Shown: piece by piece, positions 3,584 through 58,545 of the stretch
Layout of the letters: every line of letters begins with the position of its first letter
Position numbering within the stretch: position 1 is the first letter of the stretch
Source of the DNA: a virus
IMG/VR virus record: IMGVR_UViG_3300036841_000070
Coordinates: 1 to 60,041 of that record
Length of the DNA: 60,041 nucleotides
Direction: 5' to 3' (one strand)
Notes under the pieces: generated by a model
Databases searched by the model: none
Told to the model about the DNA's origin: nothing
Seen by the model: only the letters and a program-made list of their open reading frames with translations
Translations under genes and position numbers: made by a program

Positions 3584-3842
3584 CACTGGGGTTCGGTTCC
3601 CTCTGAAATGCCTGCAAACATTGCTGATTTGGGGTTCGGTTCCCGTTCGGTTCCCGTTCGGTTCCCGCCAACTGCCACGGGGTTCGGTTCCCTCGGCCCC
3701 CTTTAAAGGGGAGGCCGAACAGGGAACCGAATCACCCCCGGTGGCTCGGCTCTGTGGATTAGATTTGTTTGCGTTGGTCTGTGCGTATGCGTGCGTGCGG
3801 GCGGGCGTAAGGGACAGATATGCCTGCATGGAGGTGATTTAG
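3573..3842 (+). CDS. Possible small ORF across the iterons (doubtful)
   Basis: 89 residues, opening at ATG3573 inside the primase 3' end, with GGAGG 6 bases upstream. Much of it is simply translated iteron DNA (repeated RFP/SVP runs), so the open frame may be a by-product of the repeats. Kept because the ribosome-binding site is good. Confidence 0.25.
   Translation: MLHDTGVRFPLKCLQTLLIWGSVPVRFPFGSRQLPRGSVPSAPFKGEAEQGTESPPVARLCGLDLFALVCAYACVRAGVRDRYACMEVI
3588..3738. repeat. GGTTCGGTTCCC iterons around a palindrome (origin candidate)
   Basis: Copies of GGGGTTCGGTTCCC stand at 3588-3601, 3631-3644 and 3679-3692. Shorter GTTCGGTTCCC copies follow head to tail at 3645-3655 and 3656-3666, and an inverted copy lies at 3722-3731. 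The last direct copy and the inverted copy flank the perfect palindrome CCCCTTTAAAGGGG (3698-3711), forming a large inverted repeat. Iterons next to a palindrome directly after a primase-helicase gene is a typical replication-origin layout. That it is the origin is inference. Confidence 0.6.
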
Positions 3843-20946: not shown

Positions 20947-21141
20947 TTGACTGATTACGTTGCCCCAATTGATGCCAGCGAGTATGTTCTGGCAGACGGA
21001 AGGATCGTCGTTCCTGGCGAGTCCGTGGATCTCTCGGACAGCGATGTTGATGAGCCGCACAACAAGCGTCTGATCGAAAGCGGACAGCTGATCGAAGTGA
21101 ATGATACAAAGTCCTCAAAGAAGAAGAAGGAGGATTCATGA
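20947..21141 (+). CDS. Small charged protein before the sheath
   Basis: 64 residues from TTG20947, with GAGGAG upstream. Acidic middle, Lys-rich tail (SSKKKKEDS). Genes of this size precede sheath genes in many contractile phages. Function unknown; overlaps the sheath start by four bases. Confidence 0.6.
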   Translation: MTDYVAPIDASEYVLADGRIVVPGESVDLSDSDVDEPHNKRLIESGQLIEVNDTKSSKKKKEDS

Positions 21142-22625
21142 GGCCAGGCGTCAATGTAACGACGCGTGAGTCTGCCCCGCCCAGCACTATCCCAACTGAC
21201 GTTGGCACCGGCTTCATGGTCGGCGTTGCCGAGGCTGGGCCGATGCAGCCTGTCTCGGGAGATGTTGTCCAGAACATGGACGAGTACAAGACTGTATTCG
21301 CTCCCAGTGGACGCAGCTACGCCGCCGGTGTCGCGACATACGATGCCGCTGAGACGTTTTTCAACGAAGGCGGCAACCGTCTGTTCGTGGGTCGTGTGGT
21401 GGGTCCGGCCGCAGTCGCCGCCACTATCACCCTTCCCGACAACGCGGCGGCGGTCGCTCTCACTGCTACGGCTAACAGCCCTGGTAGCTGGGGCAACAAC
21501 GTCCACATCGAAGTTCGGACTAACACTGAAGATCCCAACATCGCTTCAGGAAGCTATCGGCTTCGTGTCGTGCGGACTTCCGACAGCTTGATCCTAGAGG
21601 AGAGCTACGATCTGGTCGATAACACGGCTGCTCTGTCATGGGCAGCTGGCAGCGGCTACATCAATCTAGCTGCTGGCGTGTCGGCTTTGGACCCGGCAGC
21701 CGGGTCATACGCACTAGCTGGCGGAACTAACGACACTCCGAGTATTACCAATACGAGTTGGCAGAATGCGCTCAACAATCTGGGCACTGGCCTCGGCCCT
21801 GGAATTCTGTTCCTGCCCGGTGTGACGACTCCTGCCATCTACAATATGGCTGCTGAGGCGGCGCGCGTGCAGTATCGTGTGGTGTTCCTCGATGCCGCTG
21901 ACACGCCGACGGCGAGCACCTTGATCGCAACCGTCAAGGGTATCGTCGATGGCACAAACAAGCGGGCGCGGTTCGCGGCGCTGTTCGCTCCCTGGATCAA
22001 CATTCCGGGTTTGGCATCGAACACGGTGCGCAAGATCGCGCCAAGCTCTGCCGTCGCGGGTCTGTTCTGTCGCAATATGGCAGCCGGTCTGTCGGCTAAC
22101 GATCCGGCCGCTGGCGATAACGGTGTGCTGCGCACGGCGCTCGATCTCACTCAGGTTTACACGGACTCCGACCGTGAGGACCTGAACGACAACGGCGTCG
22201 ATATCATCCGCGATATGTACGGCCAGCGCAAGGTCTATGGCTGGCGCACGGTTGTGGACCCAATTGGCGACCCGCGTTGGATCAATCTCGGCAACAGCAT
22301 CATGCACCGCCAGATCGTGGCGATTGCCGGTGCGGTTGGCGAGCGATTCATCTTCAAGCAGATCGATGGCAAGGGCCAGCTGATCAGTAGCTTCGGCGCA
22401 GCCCTTGAGGCAGAGGTCTGTATGCCTCTGTTCATGTCGGGCAGTCTGTTCGGTGACTCGACGACTGAGGCGTACAAGGTCGATGTCGGGCCGAGCGTTA
22501 ACACGAATGCGACAATCGCTGCCAACGAGTTGCACGCGATCATCGCAGTTAAGATGTCGCCGTTCGGAGAGCAAGTCAACATCGAAATCGTCAAGTACCT
22601 CGTGACTGACGTTATCCCAGCGTAA
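21138..22625 (+). CDS. Contractile tail sheath protein
   Basis: 495 residues. It starts MRPGVNVTTRE, with GTGFMVGVAEAGP, AETFFNEGGNRLFVGRVVGPAA and, near the end, RRTVVDPIGD-like and QVNIEIVKYLVTDVIPA, all typical of the phage sheath family. The sheath contracts to drive the tube into the host. Its presence defines a myovirus morphology. Confidence 0.9.
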   Translation: MRPGVNVTTRESAPPSTIPTDVGTGFMVGVAEAGPMQPVSGDVVQNMDEYKTVFAPSGRSYAAGVATYDAAETFFNEGGNRLFVGRVVGPAAVAATITLPDNAAAVALTATANSPGSWGNNVHIEVRTNTEDPNIASGSYRLRVVRTSDSLILEESYDLVDNTAALSWAAGSGYINLAAGVSALDPAAGSYALAGGTNDTPSITNTSWQNALNNLGTGLGPGILFLPGVTTPAIYNMAAEAARVQYRVVFLDAADTPTASTLIATVKGIVDGTNKRARFAALFAPWINIPGLASNTVRKIAPSSAVAGLFCRNMAAGLSANDPAAGDNGVLRTALDLTQVYTDSDREDLNDNGVDIIRDMYGQRKVYGWRTVVDPIGDPRWINLGNSIMHRQIVAIAGAVGERFIFKQIDGKGQLISSFGAALEAEVCMPLFMSGSLFGDSTTEAYKVDVGPSVNTNATIAANELHAIIAVKMSPFGEQVNIEIVKYLVTDVIPA

Positions 22626-39097: not shown

Positions 39098-42000
39098 TTA
39101 CGGCTCGATAATCCATAACCTATCTACTTGGACCCCATATCTAGGCTTCCGGCCTGCCACAAGCACCAGCCTATCCGGATGTTCCCGCAGATCAAAGAGG
39201 TCCGCTTTGAAGTGTGGCCATCTCCAGCGGTTAACTTTGAGCATTGTCTGGTCATCCGCATCCCTAGCGTACAGGATAGCGAACTCTCTGAGGTGCGGGT
39301 CTTTGATATTTTCAAGGTCGTCGGTGTTGCCGCGTGCGACGTTGATCTCGAAAATGTCGCGGACGTTCATGCGGACAACTTCCCCCAACCAAACGACCTT
39401 TGTGCCCTGGGGCGCTTCATCTAGCTCTCGACTCGTGTGAGTAGGGAACGGTAGTGGTTCTGTTCCGTCAAATAGCTTGCCATCAGATAGTTCCTGCTCG
39501 ATGGCTATGATGCTCTTCTCAAGTCGGTAAATGTCGTATGGATCTTCTAGTGCTATCCACTCCTTGATCTTCTCGATTGTCTTGGGGCCGATACCTCTGA
39601 TCTTGACTAGCTCGTCCCAGTCGGCGGGATCGGCTTCGATGATGGAGGTAGCAGTCTTGCGTCCAATTCCCTTGATTTGGCTGTAGCCCGCTCGTATGCG
39701 ACCTGCGCCATCAGGCTTCCAAGAGCCATCAGATCGGCCAACTCGTGGCTTGAGGATACGGATACCGTGCCGGTCCGCGTCACGGAGAATGTCTCGCTGC
39801 TTATGCTCACCGTAATGTCTAACCGATGCACTGTAGAACTCCGCTGGGTAGTGGACTTTGAACCACATTGTCCAGTATGCGAGCAGCCCGTATGCTACGC
39901 AGTGTGCTGCGTTGAACGCATACGAGCCGCTTGTGATCATATCGCCCCAGACCTTGCGGGCTTGTTGCTCGGAGATGGGTGGAAAGTCCGTGCGTTCAGG
40001 AAGCGTCTGGCAACCTTCCCAGAAACGCCCCCAAGAACGATTGAACTCTTGTTCGCCAATCTTCCTTGAGATGATCTTACGTATGTAAGCTGCGTGTGTC
40101 CATGGGAAGTCACCAACCTCACGAACAATGCGTAGAATTTGTTCTTGGTATACGATTTGGAACTGCGTGGTTTGCGTAATGATATCGACGGCTGGATGAA
40201 AACGCTCAGCTTGGGTTCGACCGAACTTGATCGCAGCGTACATGCTAGCCGCGCCGTTATGAAGCGGTCCCGGCCGAGACAGAGCGTTGCAGTCCATAAT
40301 CTCTGTAAACCGTTCTGGCTTAAGGATTTGGCAGACTGACCGCATAGCTCTACCATCGAATTGGAATACCGCCGTGACGTCGTTTCGCTTGAAACCGTCA
40401 TAAACCTCCTGATCGTTTAGTGGTATAGCATACAGATCGTCGATGGTCTGGTTCGTCCAACGCAGCATCGTCCAGAGCGCACTCATCGTGGAAAGTCCAA
40501 GGAAGTCCATCTTGAGGAGTCCCTGGCGCTCGGCGTCGTACTTGTCGAAAGCGACTACGTCAGCGTAAGTATCGCCAATCTTTTTGTGGTAGATAGCTGC
40601 CACGTCCCGGATATCGGAACTGGCGACCACATATGCGGCTGCGTGTACTCCGGACCCTCGAACATTACCTTCAAGTAGTTCGGCCCTTCTGAGATCGGGA
40701 TACCTTTCAACAACGTCGGCAGCTTGAGGGAATTGTTCAATAGTGTCTTCAACAGTTGCACTTGCTCGTAGGTCACCGCTCGACCTTTCTATCAGGAAGC
40801 TCTTGATCGTTTCGACTTCAAACTTCGGTACGTGATAGACTCTGGCTATATCGTCCAGAGCCAGCTTTCCTTTGAAGTAGGTGAAAGTTCCAATGTTAGC
40901 GACAGATGGATAACGAGTCGCCAGATAATCACGAAGAATACCCTGGTCACGTACCTCGCTTGGGAAGTCGATATCAATATCTGGTAAGTCCTCACGAGTA
41001 ACGTCGATGAACCTCTCGAAAATGAGTAGTGGAAATCGGAGTGGATCGACTTCCGTGATTCGGAGCACAAACGCCGCCAGACTCCCGGCGGCAGATCCAC
41101 GGGCTGGACCGACTGGTATACCTCGGTCTTTGATATAGGTGATCGCATCGGCCACAATGAGGAAATAATTCTCATAGCCCTTCTGCTCAATTAGGTCAAC
41201 CTCGTACTGTAGGCGCTTCTTGTACTTGGCTCGCTCAGCACCCGGCAACTTATCAAAGCCACGGAACTTCCAACCCTCGCGGAGCAAGTGCCTCCAGTAG
41301 CTTCTCACATCCTGCCAACCCTCGGGTAAGGGGAAGCTAGGCATCGGCAGGCGCGGCAGTGTGACACAGGCTTCTTCACCTATGTCAGCAGTGGCCTGCA
41401 CGGCGGCTACGGCCTGCCTTTTGGAAAGCCCTGTTCCTTGTAGCTTACGAACGATGGCGCCGTCGTTGATTGGCGGGCAAAGCCCGATGTCATAGCCCCA
41501 ATCTCGCTCCATTTCTTCGAGAGTACGACGTTCACCAGGACGAAGATTGTGAAGAATCTTCTGAACCTCGGCCTCTTCCAGAGCCGTGTAGTGGCAATCC
41601 ATCGAAGCGACCAGCTTGGCTCCCACTCGATCCGCAACACGTGCAAGTAGTGGACCTGCCCTTCTGTGTGACTCAAGTTCAGGAAAACCTTGAACTTCGA
41701 TGCAGTAAGCACTTCCAAACGCTGCCTTGAATCGCCTTGCCACTTTGAGCCCTCTAGCAAACGACGCATGTTTGGGATCAAGACCCTTGCCTCCTACTAG
41801 GCTACAGAACAGCAGCGAGCCTGAACATCCGCTAAGGATGACTAGGCCCGCCTTGTGCTCGACTAGTGTCTCGAAGTTGACGGTTGGTTCGTAGCGGAAT
41901 CCTGTTTCACCAGGTTCTACTGGCCCGCCGTCCTCGGTGCGCTGCCAGCTTAGCGTTACCATGCGCAGCAAGTTCCTGTAACCTTCAGCGTCGATGGCTA

Positions 42001-42262
42001 GCACGGTGAGGTGCATCTTACGCTTGCCGTCAGGGTCCCAAGGACACGGTGTGTATAGCTCGCAGCCAAAGATCGGCTTGACGCCATTGCCGAGCTTCTC
42101 GATTGACTCCTCGAACTTGACGTGGCTATCGAGGTTGCCGTGTTCGGTTAGCGCCAGGCTACCCATCTGGAGTTCTTGCGCCCGTCGAACATGCGCCTCC
42201 GGAAGCTGGTAGCCATCCATATAGGAGAAGGTGCTATGATGATGTAGGCTTACGAACCTCAT
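39098..42262 (-). CDS. DNA polymerase III alpha-like (DnaE, family C)
   Basis: 1054 residues from ATG42262, chosen because the PHP domain motif FVSLHHHSTFSYMDG should start near the N-terminus; an upstream ATG at 42388 would overlap the previous gene by 155 bases. PHP (1-230), a polymerase palm with PDIDIDF and GPARGSAAGSL, fingers, then a tandem helix-hairpin-helix (IKGIGRKTA...IRGIGPKTIEKI) and a short OB-like tail. This is the replicative polymerase of the phage. DnaE-type replicases are known in some actinophages. Confidence 0.9.
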   Translation of the reverse strand: MRFVSLHHHSTFSYMDGYQLPEAHVRRAQELQMGSLALTEHGNLDSHVKFEESIEKLGNGVKPIFGCELYTPCPWDPDGKRKMHLTVLAIDAEGYRNLLRMVTLSWQRTEDGGPVEPGETGFRYEPTVNFETLVEHKAGLVILSGCSGSLLFCSLVGGKGLDPKHASFARGLKVARRFKAAFGSAYCIEVQGFPELESHRRAGPLLARVADRVGAKLVASMDCHYTALEEAEVQKILHNLRPGERRTLEEMERDWGYDIGLCPPINDGAIVRKLQGTGLSKRQAVAAVQATADIGEEACVTLPRLPMPSFPLPEGWQDVRSYWRHLLREGWKFRGFDKLPGAERAKYKKRLQYEVDLIEQKGYENYFLIVADAITYIKDRGIPVGPARGSAAGSLAAFVLRITEVDPLRFPLLIFERFIDVTREDLPDIDIDFPSEVRDQGILRDYLATRYPSVANIGTFTYFKGKLALDDIARVYHVPKFEVETIKSFLIERSSGDLRASATVEDTIEQFPQAADVVERYPDLRRAELLEGNVRGSGVHAAAYVVASSDIRDVAAIYHKKIGDTYADVVAFDKYDAERQGLLKMDFLGLSTMSALWTMLRWTNQTIDDLYAIPLNDQEVYDGFKRNDVTAVFQFDGRAMRSVCQILKPERFTEIMDCNALSRPGPLHNGAASMYAAIKFGRTQAERFHPAVDIITQTTQFQIVYQEQILRIVREVGDFPWTHAAYIRKIISRKIGEQEFNRSWGRFWEGCQTLPERTDFPPISEQQARKVWGDMITSGSYAFNAAHCVAYGLLAYWTMWFKVHYPAEFYSASVRHYGEHKQRDILRDADRHGIRILKPRVGRSDGSWKPDGAGRIRAGYSQIKGIGRKTATSIIEADPADWDELVKIRGIGPKTIEKIKEWIALEDPYDIYRLEKSIIAIEQELSDGKLFDGTEPLPFPTHTSRELDEAPQGTKVVWLGEVVRMNVRDIFEINVARGNTDDLENIKDPHLREFAILYARDADDQTMLKVNRWRWPHFKADLFDLREHPDRLVLVAGRKPRYGVQVDRLWIIEP

Positions 42263-42635
42263 CGGTCGCTTGTTGCCTCTTACCACCTTCCTTCGCAGCA
42301 GCAATGGCTCTTTGTGGCTGGGTATCTTGTCCGCTGCGAGGCTGTGAGCCAAAGGCCCTCTGATACGTTGGGTCTTGTTCTCGGTCATAGAGGTAGAGTG
42401 AGATTAGAATGTTGCCGAGGAGGTCTTCCAGTATCTCTTCTGGCTGCTCACCGATGAGGTTTTCTTCGTGCCACATTGCCTTTCTGAGCTTACGCATCTT
42501 TCTGTGCATGTCACTGTACTGCCCTGCCAGGCCGAGGTCTTCAAACGCATCGCCGTAGTCAACTGACTTGCTCCTGAACCTCTGAACCGCCTGCGGCAGA
42601 ATCTTGTTGAGCATGACTGCGTAGGGGTTCTCCAT
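42234..42635 (-). CDS. Nmad1/DUF1599-like nucleotide-modification-associated protein
   Basis: 133 residues from ATG42635, with AAGGAG upstream. KSVDYGDAFEDLGLAGQYSDMHRKMRKLRKAMW with EEILEDLLGNILISLYLYD follows the pattern I associate with the nucleotide-modification-associated domain 1 family, linked to phage base-modification genes. An all-alpha MazG-like fold is likely. The C-terminal 30 residues are polar. Overlaps the polymerase start and the phosphatase end. Confidence 0.6.
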   Translation of the reverse strand: MENPYAVMLNKILPQAVQRFRSKSVDYGDAFEDLGLAGQYSDMHRKMRKLRKAMWHEENLIGEQPEEILEDLLGNILISLYLYDREQDPTYQRAFGSQPRSGQDTQPQRAIAAAKEGGKRQQATDEVRKPTSS

Positions 42636-43275
42636 ATCGCTCCTTCCAAATGCGAATTCTGTCCCTGATGACACGTTCTGCCATAGGAAGGCTAGCAGCC
42701 CTTGGGTTAAATGTGAAGGCTTTATTGAACGCATTCATCCGTAGGATTGGCGCCCGCTCGCCAAACAACGTGCGAGCCTCTAACAGTTCTTCCTCTAGAT
42801 CATCGAGCACCGCGCAGACGCGCTCCGCTCCTACCAGTGCAGCGAGCTTCTGATACTTGTCACCATCGTAGATCAGATAGTCGTAGCGGATGTTGTTACG
42901 ACGCAGCCACTCCCTGGTATCGGGATCGATGTTGTCGTGCCTGATGTACGGGCGCGTTGTGGTGACCCATAGCTCTGCGCCCTCTTGCATGACACTGCGA
43001 CAGAGCGCCGCTGCGCCGTCGTACACAGGCATGGTGCGCTTCATGCCGCCCTGCCGGTAGGCCAACTTGATGTCGTGCCATGCGTCGGTATTGACGCGAT
43101 AGGTCGTACAAAACCACTCCTTGAACGGCTGGTTGCCGACGTAGTGATCGTAGACGCGGCGATTGATGTAGCCCGAGGCGTACTCCAGAAAATGCTTATG
43201 GTACTGCCCCATCGTACCGTCGATGTCTATAGCGACGACCGGCTTGATCGTCTTGTTACACTCGGTGCATTTCAT
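42559..43275 (-). CDS. HAD-family phosphatase (5'-nucleotidase-like)
   Basis: 238 residues from ATG43275, with GGGAGG upstream. Four HAD motifs: DIDGTMG (I), TTTRP (II), a conserved Lys (about KYQKL, III) and LDDLEEE (IV). A CTEC pair near the N-terminus may bind zinc. The cap insert YHKHFLEYASGYINRRVYDH suggests a deoxyribonucleotide 5'-nucleotidase-like enzyme. With ThyX and the two MazG-like proteins it points to control of the nucleotide pool. A tRNA-like RNA lies directly upstream. Confidence 0.75.
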   Translation of the reverse strand: MKCTECNKTIKPVVAIDIDGTMGQYHKHFLEYASGYINRRVYDHYVGNQPFKEWFCTTYRVNTDAWHDIKLAYRQGGMKRTMPVYDGAAALCRSVMQEGAELWVTTTRPYIRHDNIDPDTREWLRRNNIRYDYLIYDGDKYQKLAALVGAERVCAVLDDLEEELLEARTLFGERAPILRMNAFNKAFTFNPRAASLPMAERVIRDRIRIWKERYGEPLRSHAQQDSAAGGSEVQEQVS

Positions 43276-43286
43276 AAGCCTCCCTT

Positions 43287-43361
43287 CATGCAGGCCCTGG
43301 GGATCGAACCCAGCCTGACGCACCCGTAACGGCCGCCTGCACCCCTGTGCTGGCCTGCATG
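43287..43361 (-). ncRNA. tRNA-like element 1 (acceptor stem and T-arm)
   Basis: On the minus strand CATGCAGGCC (from 43361) and GGCCTGCATG (to 43287) form a 10-bp closing stem. It stacks on a perfect T-arm, CTGGG TTCGATC CCCAG (43297-43313). The 38 bases between hold GCAC/GUGC and GGCG/CGUC hairpins, but no convincing anticodon arm. It ends 11 bases before the start codon of the phosphatase gene. A degenerate tRNA is possible; a tRNA mimic in a leader, perhaps an RNase P target, is the alternative. Confidence 0.6.
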
Positions 43362-52655: not shown

Positions 52656-53783
52656 CTACTTGGAAGGGTTTGCCTTGCGCGAACGGGTGACGCGGACCTT
52701 GCGGGACTTGGGAGCGGGCTGAGGCTCTTCCATCTCCTCCTCCTCCTCGTCCTCCTCATCCTCGTCCTCGTCCTCATCCTCCTCGTCCTCGTCAAGCTCC
52801 TCTTCCATCTCCTCCTCGTCCTCAAGCTCCTCCTCGTCCTCCTCGTCCTCCTCGTCCGGCTCCTCCTCCACCTGCTTGGCGCGCCGCCTGGTCTTGGTGG
52901 CCTTGGCCTTCGCGGTGTCCTTCGCCTTCGCCTTGGTCGAGTTGGACTTGTCCTGCTTGATGATGACGGACTCGGCCCCCTCCGGGCCGTGGTCGCGGAG
53001 CAGCCTGCGGCCGGTCATCGAGCCGGGGAGCGTCCAGTCGTACTTGTCCTCGATCATCTGGCCGATGTCGCCCCAGCTGGTGGCGGGCTTCTTGTTGCGC
53101 TCGCGGTAGATCAGCTTGGCGATGTTGCGCTTCTTCGCGTCGCTCAGCCCGGCGAGCTTGTCCGCGCCGCGCGTGCGGCCGGTGGTCTGCTTGGCGCCGT
53201 TGTCGGCGGCGGCGGCCTTGGTCGGCCGCTTCTTGGCGGTGCTCGCCTTGGCGGCGGGCTTCCTCGTGGCCATGCTGAACTTCCCTTCCTTGTCTCGTTG
53301 GATATTCGTTTTCTGTCTACCGTGCAATTGTGCGTGATGTCTCTTGCACAAGAACCGGATGTTGCTTAGATCGTTGTTGCCGTTGTCGCCGTCGATGTGA
53401 TGAATCTCGGGCTTATCTGAGCAATCTTCGATCTCACACTCAATAGGAACTTTCCCTTTGAGTTCCCTCCTGGCGCGAATCTTCTTCCCGCCATAAGTTG
53501 CATCGTCACCCTTATAGGAGTGGTGTTGTTTCGGTGGCCTCCTTGTCTCGGATCGGTTGATTGACTCCGGCACCCTAGCAGGGTAGCGCGGAATTGGCAA
53601 CAAATTGGTGCCCCTAAAGAGCACCGTAGGATGTATCCTCCATATACCTATGAGGACGCGACCGAACCCCTTACGTGACCATTTGACGGTGAACTTATCG
53701 TCGCCCGGTATCAGGCCCGTCAAAAAGCCTGCCTTCCAAGGGTGCTCGCGGTCGGGCAGATATATGACGACTCGTCTGCCCAT
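52656..53783 (-). CDS. HNH nuclease fused to a histone-like basic/acidic protein
   Basis: 375 residues in one frame. Residues about 115-155 are an HNH domain (CEIEDCSDKPEIHHIDGDNGNNDLSNIRFLCKRHH). Met171 (codon at 53273, with GGAAGGGAAG upstream) begins MATRKPAAKASTAKKRPTKA, a histone H1-like Lys/Ala region, then a domain with DIGQMIEDKYDWTLPGSMTGRRLLRD, and a tail of almost pure Glu/Asp. Two products may arise: a fusion and a separate 205-residue DNA-binding protein. The frame is also open upstream to CTG53876, next to an SD-like element, at the stop of the preceding gene. Confidence 0.7.
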   Translation of the reverse strand: MGRRVVIYLPDREHPWKAGFLTGLIPGDDKFTVKWSRKGFGRVLIGIWRIHPTVLFRGTNLLPIPRYPARVPESINRSETRRPPKQHHSYKGDDATYGGKKIRARRELKGKVPIECEIEDCSDKPEIHHIDGDNGNNDLSNIRFLCKRHHAQLHGRQKTNIQRDKEGKFSMATRKPAAKASTAKKRPTKAAAADNGAKQTTGRTRGADKLAGLSDAKKRNIAKLIYRERNKKPATSWGDIGQMIEDKYDWTLPGSMTGRRLLRDHGPEGAESVIIKQDKSNSTKAKAKDTAKAKATKTRRRAKQVEEEPDEEDEEDEEELEDEEEMEEELDEDEEDEDEDEDEEDEEEEEMEEPQPAPKSRKVRVTRSRKANPSK

Positions 53784-54768: not shown

Positions 54769-55025
54769 TTGACGGTGAGTCCTCCCTTCGCGTTGCGGTA
54801 GATGCTCGCGTACCACGAGCGGTCTGTGAACGGGTCCGGCCCGACGACGTTGAACGTGATGTCCTCGGGCAGCTGATCGGCGTAGCCGCTGAACTTCTGC
54901 CACTCCTTCATAGCCGCCGTATCGTACAGGTAGACGGTGTGCGGTGCTTCCTTGATCGCGAGCTTGAGCGCGGCCTTCGTCGGCTTCTTGTTGGTGAAGT
55001 CGGCACCGCCTTGTGCGTAGATCAT
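54765..55025 (-). CDS. Hypothetical protein
   Basis: 86 residues from ATG55025; GTG55031 in the same frame is possible. Pattern MIYAQGGADFTNKKPTKAAL, then VYLYDTAAMKEW and DITFNVVGPDPFTDRSWYA, is one I associate with small conserved actinophage proteins of unknown role. Confidence 0.65.
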   Translation of the reverse strand: MIYAQGGADFTNKKPTKAALKLAIKEAPHTVYLYDTAAMKEWQKFSGYADQLPEDITFNVVGPDPFTDRSWYASIYRNAKGGLTVK

Positions 55026-55027
55026 AT

Positions 55028-55213
55028 TCACTCCGGGTCCAACTCGTCGAATGATAGGGTATCCTCCACGCCGTCGTCGAACATGACCTTGCAAACGTCA
55101 GGCAAGGTCGGGTCATCGGACAGCGCTGTGATCCTGCCGTAGCGCTCGTTGGGCTTGAGTTCGTGGTGACCGTGAATTTGCACCCGCTGACCTTCTGACG
55201 GGTTCTCGATCAC
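55028..55213 (-). CDS. Small SH3-like protein
   Basis: 61 residues from GTG55213 (GTGA overlap). PSEGQRVQIHGHHELKPNERYGRITAL reads like a small SH3-type barrel. Function unknown. Confidence 0.6.
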   Translation of the reverse strand: MIENPSEGQRVQIHGHHELKPNERYGRITALSDDPTLPDVCKVMFDDGVEDTLSFDELDPE

Positions 55214-55419
55214 CCCTCCTCCTCAATCTGCGTAACGATCAGGTCGAGCAGATGCCGCACAAACGGCTCGCGCGGAATCATATCCGGCCGGATGTCGTCG
55301 ATCCGCTCGACCAGATCGGCCGTGATGCGGATCGGCAGGTACTGTGGCTCAACCACCTGGAGGGGAGGCTTCTTCACGGTGCCTCCCCGCTTCTTGGTCT
55401 TGGGATTGCTGACTGCCAT
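55210..55419 (-). CDS. Ribbon-helix-helix-like regulator
   Basis: 69 residues from ATG55419. PQYLPIRITADLVERIDDIRPDM...FVRHLLDLIVTQIEEEG fits a ribbon-helix-helix domain: one strand (LPIRI) and two helices. A basic N-terminal arm precedes it. An SD-like element sits at codons 11-16, with its GTG in frame, so a shorter form starting MKKPPLQVVEPQYLP is possible. Confidence 0.6.
   Translation of the reverse strand: MAVSNPKTKKRGGTVKKPPLQVVEPQYLPIRITADLVERIDDIRPDMIPREPFVRHLLDLIVTQIEEEG
55375..55390 (-). repeat. Dispersed SD-like element with in-frame GTG
   Basis: GCGGGGAGGCACCGTG on the minus strand, in the frame reading RGGTV of the ribbon-helix-helix gene. Confidence 0.75.
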
Positions 55420-55550
55420 TAGACCTTCACTGGCTCCTTCTTGGGTTCTGGGGTTTTGACCGGCTCCCGCTCTGGGACCGGCTCCTTGCTGGGCACTGGG
55501 TTCCTGATAGGCTCTACTGTGATCTTCTCCTTCTCTTTACCGATCTCCAT
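55419..55550 (-). CDS. Small Pro/Glu/Lys-repeat protein
   Basis: 43 residues from ATG55550. Mostly KEPV/EPVK-type repeats, disordered. The TAA overlaps the next ATG (TAATG). No function evident. Confidence 0.5.
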   Translation of the reverse strand: MEIGKEKEKITVEPIRNPVPSKEPVPEREPVKTPEPKKEPVKV

Positions 55551-55983
55551 GCTTGCGCTCCAGGTTGTAGAGTTTGTACGGGACGCCATATGCTTCAGCT
55601 AATGGCTTCGCTAGCCGCCAACGGCTATACGGCACCAAAAGCATCTTGGGGTAAGCGAACTGTGCTCGCCAACCTGTCTGTGCGGGGATGATCCCGCCCC
55701 AGAGGTTTACTTGTCCTGCAATCGTGATATCGTGCGGGGCGGCGAACATCCCTTCAGACTTCGTGTAACCCATATCGAATAGCCGGTTGAACGTCGCAGC
55801 AGCGTATGTACCGCAGGAACAATGAGGATCAGGAACCTCATGTTCATGCCGGTCGCATGTTGCCTCGAAATCCATAAACGGCTGCCACATTATGTGGTCG
55901 CGGGCGAAGCTGAATAGCCTGTTATCCTTGACTAGCCAGACGCGGTATCCGACCGCAGGCTCAATCGCGTCAGGAACCCTCAT
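55537..55983 (-). CDS. Conserved actinobacterial-type protein with Cys/His cluster
   Basis: 148 residues. The pattern GYRVWLVKDNRLFSFARDHIMWQPF, CDRHEHEVPDPHCSCGTYAA and QVNLWGGIIPAQTGWRAQFAYPKML belongs to a family I recall from many actinobacteria and their phages, of unknown function. The Cys and His residues suggest metal binding. Confidence 0.65.
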   Translation of the reverse strand: MRVPDAIEPAVGYRVWLVKDNRLFSFARDHIMWQPFMDFEATCDRHEHEVPDPHCSCGTYAAATFNRLFDMGYTKSEGMFAAPHDITIAGQVNLWGGIIPAQTGWRAQFAYPKMLLVPYSRWRLAKPLAEAYGVPYKLYNLERKHGDR

Positions 55984-56965
55984 CGAGTGTCTCGATCAAC
56001 TCCTGCGGCAGCTTCCACCACCACTCGTTGCCGCGCTTCACCGACTCAACCTCGGCTTCGGCCTTGGCCGCTTCCAAGGTGCGCTTCGTGATGCCGTAGT
56101 GCTTGGAGTCCTCGATGACTTCGGTCGCCCGCGCCTGGTGGTTGGGCGCGGCTCCGAGGTAGTCCACGAGGAACTCAAGCGCCTTCTCACGCTTCGTCGG
56201 CGGACGGCCCAACTTGCCTCCCCGACCTGGCTTGGCGAGCATGAGCATCGGGTCGAACCCTTCCTCAACTTCGCCGATGGTCGTGAGAAGCGGCTGCGGT
56301 CGCTCAATGCCCTCAACGTCGGCCTCGTCCATCTCGAACTCCAGAGGAAGCGGGTCGTCACGCAGCTGGCTCTTGACGCAGCACATAAGGATGCGATCCT
56401 TGTCCTCAGGGTCGCGCCCGACGATGTAGATCATACGTCCGGCGGCGGGCAGGCCAGAGCTTGCGCCGCCGATGGCGTTGAGCGGATGCGAGTTCTTCGC
56501 CACGTTCTTGATAACGTGATCGACGAGCACGAACGCACAGCCGGTTTCCTGCGCCAGCTTCTTCAGAGGGCGCGTGGCCTTGCGGATGCTGTCGCTCGTT
56601 CGCTTGACGCCCTCGCTCAGATGCTCGTTGACGGGGTCGCAGATGACGAGCTTGACCTTGTACTTCTCGATGTACTTCCGCATCCGCCCGATGTCCTCTG
56701 GGAACAACGGGTCGAAGTCATACTCGATCCGACGCTTGTTCGCGCCGATAGCCGTCAGGCGCGGGCCGAGCATGGTGCTGTCGATTTCCTCGGTCTGGCT
56801 AAGGACCACGACGCCCTTCTTTGCCACATCGGTGGCGATGCGAATGCCGAGCAGCGACTTGCCGCCACCCGGCCTCCCCGCTATGACGTGGACCGTACCC
56901 TCAAAGATACGGTCCTGCCATAGCGACTTGATGTTTTTGTTCTCAATCCTACTGGCTCTCGCCAT
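55970..56965 (-). CDS. RepA/DnaB-like AAA_25 ATPase
   Basis: 331 residues. Walker A AGRPGGGKS (29-37), Walker B LVICDP, then FVLVDHVIKN and NAIGGASSGLPAAGR as in RepA-type hexameric helicases. Residues 245-331 are a separate helical segment with a winged-helix look (RPPTKREKALEFLVDYLG). It is the second such ATPase here, so one may load or regulate the other. Two SD-like elements occur inside. Confidence 0.75.
   Translation of the reverse strand: MARASRIENKNIKSLWQDRIFEGTVHVIAGRPGGGKSLLGIRIATDVAKKGVVVLSQTEEIDSTMLGPRLTAIGANKRRIEYDFDPLFPEDIGRMRKYIEKYKVKLVICDPVNEHLSEGVKRTSDSIRKATRPLKKLAQETGCAFVLVDHVIKNVAKNSHPLNAIGGASSGLPAAGRMIYIVGRDPEDKDRILMCCVKSQLRDDPLPLEFEMDEADVEGIERPQPLLTTIGEVEEGFDPMLMLAKPGRGGKLGRPPTKREKALEFLVDYLGAAPNHQARATEVIEDSKHYGITKRTLEAAKAEAEVESVKRGNEWWWKLPQELIETLDEGS
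56210..56225 (-). repeat. Dispersed SD-like element with in-frame TTG
   Basis: TCGGGGAGGCAAGTTG on the minus strand. The TTG is in frame with the RepA-like protein at the border of its C-terminal domain (GRGGKLGRPP). Confidence 0.75.
56866..56881 (-). repeat. Dispersed SD-like element inside a Walker A region
   Basis: GCGGGGAGGCCGGGTG on the minus strand, encoding AGRPGG of the RepA-like Walker A motif. Here protein constraint alone could explain part of the match. Confidence 0.6.
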
Positions 56966-57761: not shown

Positions 57762-57788
57762 ATTTAATCCCTTCGTTGTGGTTTACAT

Positions 57789-57868
57789 AGCGTGAACCGG
57801 GAATCGAACCCGGCGAACCGGCTCAAGGCGAGGAGATCAACTTACCTCCCCGCCCTGAGCCTCACGCT
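57789..57868 (-). ncRNA. tRNA-like element 2 (acceptor, T-arm, long hairpin)
   Basis: Read on the minus strand: AGCGTGAG pairs with TTCACGCT (8 bp, one G-U). A perfect T-arm, CCGGG TTCGATT CCCGG, lies at 57813-57797. The D and anticodon arms are replaced by one 15-bp hairpin (57821-57860) with a 10-base loop and two G-U pairs. These G-U pairs favour the minus-strand RNA. No CCA is encoded. It lies in the leader of the long early operon and contains a copy of the SD-like element. Confidence 0.7.
57838..57853 (-). repeat. Dispersed SD-like element in tRNA-like element 2
   Basis: GCGGGGAGGTAAGTTG on the minus strand. The GGGGAG part is paired in the 15-bp hairpin and the TTG lies in its loop; the TTG opens only a five-codon frame. 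Confidence 0.75.
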
Positions 57869-58545
57869 TTTGACTTCCTTGATTGCCTTCATTGAGTCAC
57901 GCTTCGCACAAGACGGCCGCGCAGATGCGATCAAAGGCAGCGGCTCAAGGAGGTTCAATGTCGCACACAAATACTTGTCCGAGCCTGCGTTCAATCGCGG
58001 GCGCGTGCGCCTACACGTTAACAGGCATCCCGAGCGCCGGTCGTTCGGACACGGCGGGGGCCGGTTTGATCGGCCCGTTATTCGGGTCACGTTAGGCTAC
58101 CATCGTTCCATGCTTCGCTCGTCAAGTTGCTGCTTGATTTCTGATTGCTCGGTTTGCGAATTCATCGACGTTTCGGCAACTCCACGAACAGGCTTCGGTC
58201 CATGCTCGCGCGCTTACTAGCTTCATCCGCTCCGTTGCAATCCATCCTCAAGCACTCGGCTTGGGTCGGCTTGCACAGTCTGCGTCGCCATAGTGCGGTT
58301 CGGCTTCCCGGCTCAGCCTGCCGGTCTGCGGGGGTCCGAACAGTCCCCCTTGCCCCTCAACCGGTCATAGACTGATCCGGGAGGTCACCCTACACTTCGC
58401 TTGGTTACTCTGAACCTTTGTTTGCTGTCTGGTTCCGAGGCCCCGCGCTCCGCGCTCTAAGGGTAGCAGAGTCCGCGCCCGATTGCAAGCGACCGCGAGC
58501 AGAAATTTTCCTCATAGCGGCCTCATGTCGGGGAGGCAAAATGGC
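57869..58545. other. Early-region leader without a convincing gene
   Basis: Both strands have short frames only. On plus, a 45-residue frame from about 57960 has AAGGAGG before its ATG. On minus, an 82-residue frame (57842-58090) ends in tRNA-like element 2, preceded by a chain of 13-34 codon frames. None has a recognisable product. TAGGCTACC near 58093 resembles the late -10 region. The SD-like elements change orientation across this stretch, so a promoter or replication landmark is possible. Confidence 0.4.
58528..58543 (+). repeat. Dispersed SD-like element (plus copy)
   Basis: TCGGGGAGGCAAAATG, the first plus-orientation copy after nine minus copies. It runs directly into the hairpin at 58546. 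Confidence 0.75.

Follow-up and report, generated by a model that had tools for sequence, protein, structure and literature searches.

Mammalian MALAT1 and NEAT1 are long noncoding RNAs that end in a structure composed of an acceptor stem and a T-arm (mascRNA and menRNA, RF01684). They mature by an RNase P cut before and an RNase Z cut after this tRNA-like structure, an arrangement described in 2025 as unique to these two among the lncRNAs (PMC12941219). In plant mitochondria, tRNA-like structures beside mRNAs, the t-elements, serve as processing signals (PMC4919922). Known bacterial non-tRNA substrates of RNase P include the precursors of 4.5S RNA and tmRNA, OLE RNA, operon mRNAs and phage regulatory RNAs (PMC4919922). 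In model substrates, acceptor, T-stem and T-loop alone suffice for cleavage by bacterial RNase P RNA (PMC11143913), and two extra base pairs in the acceptor or T-stem leave the fidelity of E. coli P RNA undisturbed (PMC4919922). Furthermore, phages encode a few large ornate noncoding RNAs, GOLLD and ROOL, which often lie near tRNAs or contain them (PMC12286853).

Here, a phage locus is described that combines features of these systems. The window, i.e. the whole stretch of DNA analysed (60,041 nt, IMG/VR record IMGVR_UViG_3300036841_000070), encodes a tail sheath match indicative of a contractile-tail phage and a DnaE-like polymerase (21138-22625 and 39098-42388). The nearest phage records of the polymerase are Streptomyces and Microbacterium phages. 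On the minus strand, a conserved large RNA, a tRNA-like element and the first gene of an early operon follow each other (Table 1); two related phages, L004 and L002, carry the same locus.

Like MALAT1 and NEAT1, the phage locus comprises a long noncoding RNA ending in an acceptor and T-arm structure. However, those RNAs are mammalian and common descent is not implied, the downstream product in the phage would be an operon mRNA, and phage processing is predicted. The RF01684 model found no match in the window and scored the L002 element with 19.7 bits, compared to a gathering cut-off of 42.5 bits. With GOLLD and ROOL, the upstream RNA shares its size class, its occurrence in phages and its association with tRNA sequences, whereas it matches no Rfam family even at E 10, is with ~585 nt smaller than GOLLD and borders on a tRNA-like element instead of a tRNA, at the head of an early operon. 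The use of RNase P proposed here is similar to that of the bacterial non-tRNA substrates; in contrast to them, the phage element is a near-complete, covarying acceptor/T-arm half located between a large RNA and an operon. The t-elements resemble our proposal in principle, but they are organellar, depend on protein-only RNase P and are unrelated in sequence. In bacterial tRNA-Sec, acceptor and T-stem amount to 13 bp in total. The phage element likewise has 13 bp (7 + 6) in all three phages, but it contains neither an anticodon arm nor a D-arm nor a UCA anticodon, and ARAGORN does not call it. By analogy, the element may act in the way of mascRNA and of RNase P processing sites in general, which makes it a candidate member of these classes.

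Table 1. Features of the phage locus and of the second tRNA-like element (positions in the window).
Feature	Position	Strand	Remarks
Promoter-like site TTGCAA-N17-TACCCT, head of leader	58460-58488	minus	predicted; form shared with L004 and L002
Structured noncoding RNA, ~585 nt	57869-58453	minus	both ends putative; conserved in L004 and L002
Best supported domain of this RNA, one long irregular arm	58091-58297	minus	GACGCAGACU at base, ACGAUGGUAGCC on returning strand
tRNA-like element	57789-57868	minus	7-bp acceptor, 17-18-bp hairpin, linker, 6-bp T-stem, 7-nt T-loop
Acceptor stem, 5' strand AGCGUGA	57862-57868	minus	pairs with 57795-57789
Long hairpin replacing D and anticodon arms	57820-57861	minus	predicted fold
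T-arm GCCGGG UUCGAUU CCCGGU	57796-57814	minus	predicted fold; exact GGTTCGATTCC at 57810-57800
Acceptor stem, 3' strand UCACGCU	57789-57795	minus	pairs with acceptor 5' strand
First gene of leftward operon, 85 aa	57504-57761	minus	ORF; homologous DNA in L004
Second tRNA-like element	43288-43360	minus	9-bp acceptor, two short hairpins, T-arm CUGGG UUCGAUC CCCAG
Polynucleotide-kinase/HAD-like gene directly after second element	42559-43274	minus	phrog_415, E 7e-16

Fold and covariation of the tRNA-like element

Read on the minus strand from 57868 to 57789, the element consists of AGCGUGA, the hairpin, the linker GGUUC, the T-arm and UCACGCU. In the minimum-energy fold, the acceptor comprises 7 bp and the hairpin 18 bp with 6 nt in its loop; the linker of 5 nt leads to a T-stem of 6 bp whose loop has 7 nt, and the 5' flank is unpaired. 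The free energy of -55.4 kcal/mol (z -6.5) was reached by none of 200 shuffled sequences, and the plus strand folds less stably (-45.2). As in tRNAs, the acceptor is flush with the T-arm, and the T-loop UUCGAUU is an exact match to the UUCRANY type. A discriminator-like A (57788) directly follows the acceptor 3' strand, and CCA is not encoded after the acceptor in the window, L004 or L002. A strict search for this architecture, in which an acceptor of 8 bp or more had to abut directly on a T-stem of 5 bp with a TTCRANN loop, yielded exactly two matches in the window, the element itself and the one at 43360-43288, compared to an average of 0.07 in shuffled windows.

ARAGORN detected neither tRNA nor tmRNA genes in the window, and no Rfam family matched it at the gathering score. 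An ordinary or intron-containing tRNA was rejected, as ARAGORN calls none and one hairpin stands for both D and anticodon arms. The same applies to a tmRNA: ARAGORN finds none, and the two strands of the acceptor lie within the same 80 nt.

These results largely bear out a preliminary description made from the letters of the window, which had placed a tRNA-like RNA other than an ordinary tRNA at exactly these coordinates, named the minus-strand RNA as the folded form, pointed to the TTCGATT T-loop and counted two such elements in the phage. Its location in the leader of the leftward early operon and the 27 nt up to the first ATG (57761) proved correct, too. The 13-bp stack stands as well, although the proposed division into 8 + 5 bp differs from the 7 + 6 bp of the minimum-energy fold. 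The hairpin, for which 15 bp had been given, comprises 17-18 bp.

Relatives were reached via the downstream DnaB-like helicase gene (55970-56965), which led to three IMG/VR contigs, L002, L003 and L004. Since the leaders of L003 and L004 do not differ in sequence, these contigs were counted as one phage; L002 is a second, more distant one. A helicase profile search for further relatives returned only the same three contigs. Homologous tRNA-like elements are located at 2843-2925 in L004 and at 3321-3382 in L002, and in both phages the first early gene follows closely. The acceptor and T-stem pairs, 13 in total, can all be formed in the window, L004 and L002. A lack of covariation in related phages, which would have counted against the proposal of the preliminary description, was not observed: six of the 13 pairs (acceptor pairs 1, 5, 6 and 7, T-stem pairs 2 and 3) show double compensatory changes and no pair is lost. 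The underlying alignment was built manually from the folds and comprises three independent genomes. Under a crude null of independent changes, equal in number to those observed, all pairs were kept in 5e-5 (L002) and 8e-4 (L004) of the trials. Judged by these compensatory changes, the fold of the element is conserved in the three phages.

The T-loops read UUCGAUU, UUCGAUC and UUCAAUU, and each acceptor 3' strand is succeeded by an A. The +1 base is A in the window and L004, and C in L002. The hairpins of the window and L004 also covary, and that of L002 is different and shorter (7 bp). A GG present in the single-stranded linker of each element might replace the GG of the D-loop.

The second element of the window is absent from the orthologous site in phage L079, which means either a gain in the window phage or a loss in L079. 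Similar structures were observed in more distant phages. In G009 (L091, 8705-8781, plus strand), an irregular tRNA-like element lies right after a true tRNA-Cys and has a GUUACG stretch in common with the second element of the window. In G008 (L099, 7476-7538, plus strand), a tRNA-like element that ARAGORN does not call lies in the gap from one gene to the next, with a ribosome-binding site and an ATG immediately after it. Of its hairpins, one resembles a D-arm and another has 5 bp and 6 nt in the loop. The elements in L091 and L099 suggest that such tRNA-like elements recur in the operons of related phages.

The large RNA and the head of the operon

The preliminary description had treated the element as a stand-alone leader structure and overlooked that it is located 3' of a conserved RNA of ~585 nt; this view had to be corrected. 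The noncoding stretch upstream of the element is kept in the window, L004 and L002. Indels among the three phages are mostly not multiples of three, and a common reading frame is not found. An RNAalifold core of 93 pairs contains 36 doubly changed ones, compared to 14.4 in shuffles (none of 500 as high), and 90.6% of its cells are paired, a value that drops to 29-40% when the partners are slid; with three related sequences, these shuffle and slide controls are indicative only. Pairing is complete in helices 7, 9, 11 and 12, which also show compensatory changes; in the long-arm domain, the same is true of helices 9-12 (100% paired). A pairing of the 5' end of the large RNA with the acceptor 3' strand, proposed by RNAalifold, was set aside because L002 is misaligned there. 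Folding of the large RNA as a single sequence showed no unusual stability (z -0.9); the evidence for it therefore comes from covariation.

Searches for further members were negative. With Rfam covariance models at E 10, L001, L002 and L004 gave no credible match, GOLLD, ROOL and OLE included. The same was true for blastn against phages (window and L004 versions) and plasmids (window version). Pattern scans of viral contigs with three separate parts of the RNA returned the same phages and matches lying in other sequence; matches in a genome contig (L073) and a viral one (L072) look like chance. A covariance model of the long arm (R1, 58297-58091) recognised only the three phages among the sequences searched. 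The RNA is absent from the polymerase-linked relatives G004-G011, where R1 adds no member, too. Its core covaries strongly, it belongs to no Rfam family tested and it was found only in this one phage clade. With it, the small group of large and ornate RNAs encoded by phages, GOLLD and ROOL, would gain a new, covariation-supported member, and R1 is a handle for finding further relatives. In the early region of Streptomyces phage Lizz (L114), two long stretches carry no annotated genes (54886-55593 and 59589-60443).

At the head of the leader, TTGC(A/G)(A/T)-N17-TANNNT is found at the same place in the window, L004 and L002; a sigma-70 consensus scan did not call this promoter-like site (58488-58460). 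The protein encoded by the first operon gene has no PHROG match, and a pattern scan gave no relatives. All three phages have the large RNA first, then the tRNA-like element, then the first gene. This holds even for L002, in which more than 100 nt are missing upstream of the element and the hairpin is a different one.

Processing site or control device

On balance, it is slightly more likely than not that the element mimics a tRNA and serves as a processing site where the large noncoding RNA of the phage ends. A leftward transcript would start at the promoter around 58488-58460, and its first ~585 nt would fold into the structured RNA, followed by the element and, 27 nt later, the early operon. 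Host RNase P would recognise the 13-bp acceptor/T-stem stack and the T-loop and cut at about 57869/57868. A further cut, by RNase Z or a different nuclease, may follow 3' of the A at 57788. The large RNA would thereby be freed with a defined 3' end, and the early mRNA would gain a new 5' end. Transcription as one unit, the RNase P cleavage, the RNase Z cut and a function of the released RNA are what we infer for this locus. The preliminary description had considered an acceptor plus T-arm to be an RNase P type substrate, and the 13-bp stack, the T-loop and a single-stranded 5' leader are indeed present; the cleavage itself is predicted. Since the element ends a conserved large RNA, separating that RNA from the mRNA is its more likely role. 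The fixed order together with a constant acceptor/T-arm and a hairpin free to change is the pattern expected of a processing signal. Against processing speaks that the +1 position is occupied by A or C instead of the G usual in tRNAs and that no CCA is encoded. Furthermore, the 17-18-bp hairpin, much longer than a tRNA arm, might hinder RNase P binding. If the processing reading is true, the phage uses a host tRNA-processing enzyme to cut a large structured RNA from its early mRNA. The wider proposal of a new class of large phage noncoding RNA, whose 3' end is matured by host RNase P via a tRNA mimic and which has an essential early function once released, so that it would be the phage equivalent of MALAT1/mascRNA, is tentative and rather doubtful.

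Alternatively, the element could be a cis-acting control device of the early operon and not a processing site, which we regard as unlikely. In this reading, one copy of a motif that resembles a ribosome-binding site and occurs throughout the phage (GCGGGGAGG with UUG after it) would be masked by the hairpin; the switching would be done by a protein, by a ribosome or by a competing fold, and acceptor and T-arm would provide a platform for protein binding. In line with this, AGCGGGGAGG followed by TG about 5 bases later recurs on the early-region coding strand in all three phages, the hairpins of the window and L004 keep GCGGGGAGGUNNNUUGAUCUC although other pairs change, and a mini-ORF starting at the hairpin UUG is 5 codons long in the window, compared to 9 codons in L004. 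However, the L002 hairpin lacks the motif, yet acceptor and T-arm are kept, so the motif is not the constant feature, and operon control leaves the strict tRNA geometry unexplained. It remains a serious rival, and processing and operon control can both be true. That the element is a decayed phage tRNA gene, now functionless after loss of D and anticodon arms, is improbable: true tRNAs do occur in other phages with a related polymerase, and irregular tRNA-like elements exist beside a tRNA (L091) and between genes (L099), but ordinary decay would lose pairs, whereas six double changes and no broken pair were found among 13, at the same place in three phages and at the end of a conserved RNA.

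A decoy for a tRNA-binding host factor had been suggested in the preliminary description; the element or its released form might equally occupy a defence enzyme that targets tRNAs. The complete acceptor/T-arm half with its 13-bp stack and without anticodon as well as the second copy in the same phage would suit a decoy. Nevertheless, no defence or counter-defence gene was seen beside the element, a partner is not known, and the element is embedded in the leader in a fixed order after the large RNA; the decoy reading is not supported by this and is distinctly improbable. An attP site often contains a T-arm and the 3' acceptor strand, as would be copied from the 3' end of a host tRNA by a temperate phage integrating into the tRNA gene. 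For the element, such an origin is very improbable, as the 5' acceptor strand is present and covaries, the relatives differ in sequence but keep the fold, and no integrase was found among the proteins scanned, a subset of the ORFs. GC-rich sequences fold readily, but a chance fold is hardly credible given a z of -6.5, 0.07 expected matches per window and covarying homologues.

Apart from its role in the control reading, the hairpin motif was observed elsewhere in the phage. The 5' arm of the hairpin holds GCGGGGAGGU and then UUGAUCUC, and its GCGGGGAGGTNNNTTGATCTC is identical in L004. The mini-ORF in the window (57838-57820, minus strand) has its UUG start inside the hairpin directly after the GGGGAGG motif and may encode a leader peptide or be due to chance. 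On the minus strand of the window, AGCGGGGAGG-TG is found at 56882, 55391, 53890, 51878, 49798, 47648, 44338 and other positions, mostly on the early-region coding strand; some copies at least coincide with gene starts or fall within N-terminal codons. The phages G003 and G001 likewise carry the dispersed motif. It is possibly a start-associated or regulatory site. Cluster K mycobacteriophages reportedly have start-associated sequences, a short asymmetric motif repeated near gene starts. In the phage studied here, the motif is AGCGGGGAGG and one copy forms a hairpin arm. Two further repetitive sequences were noticed in the window: GGTTCGGTTCC occurs three times within 100 bases at 3590-3691 (plus strand), and a CTC/GTC tract inside the ORF of an HNH-like protein (52704-52895, minus strand) encodes an acidic stretch.
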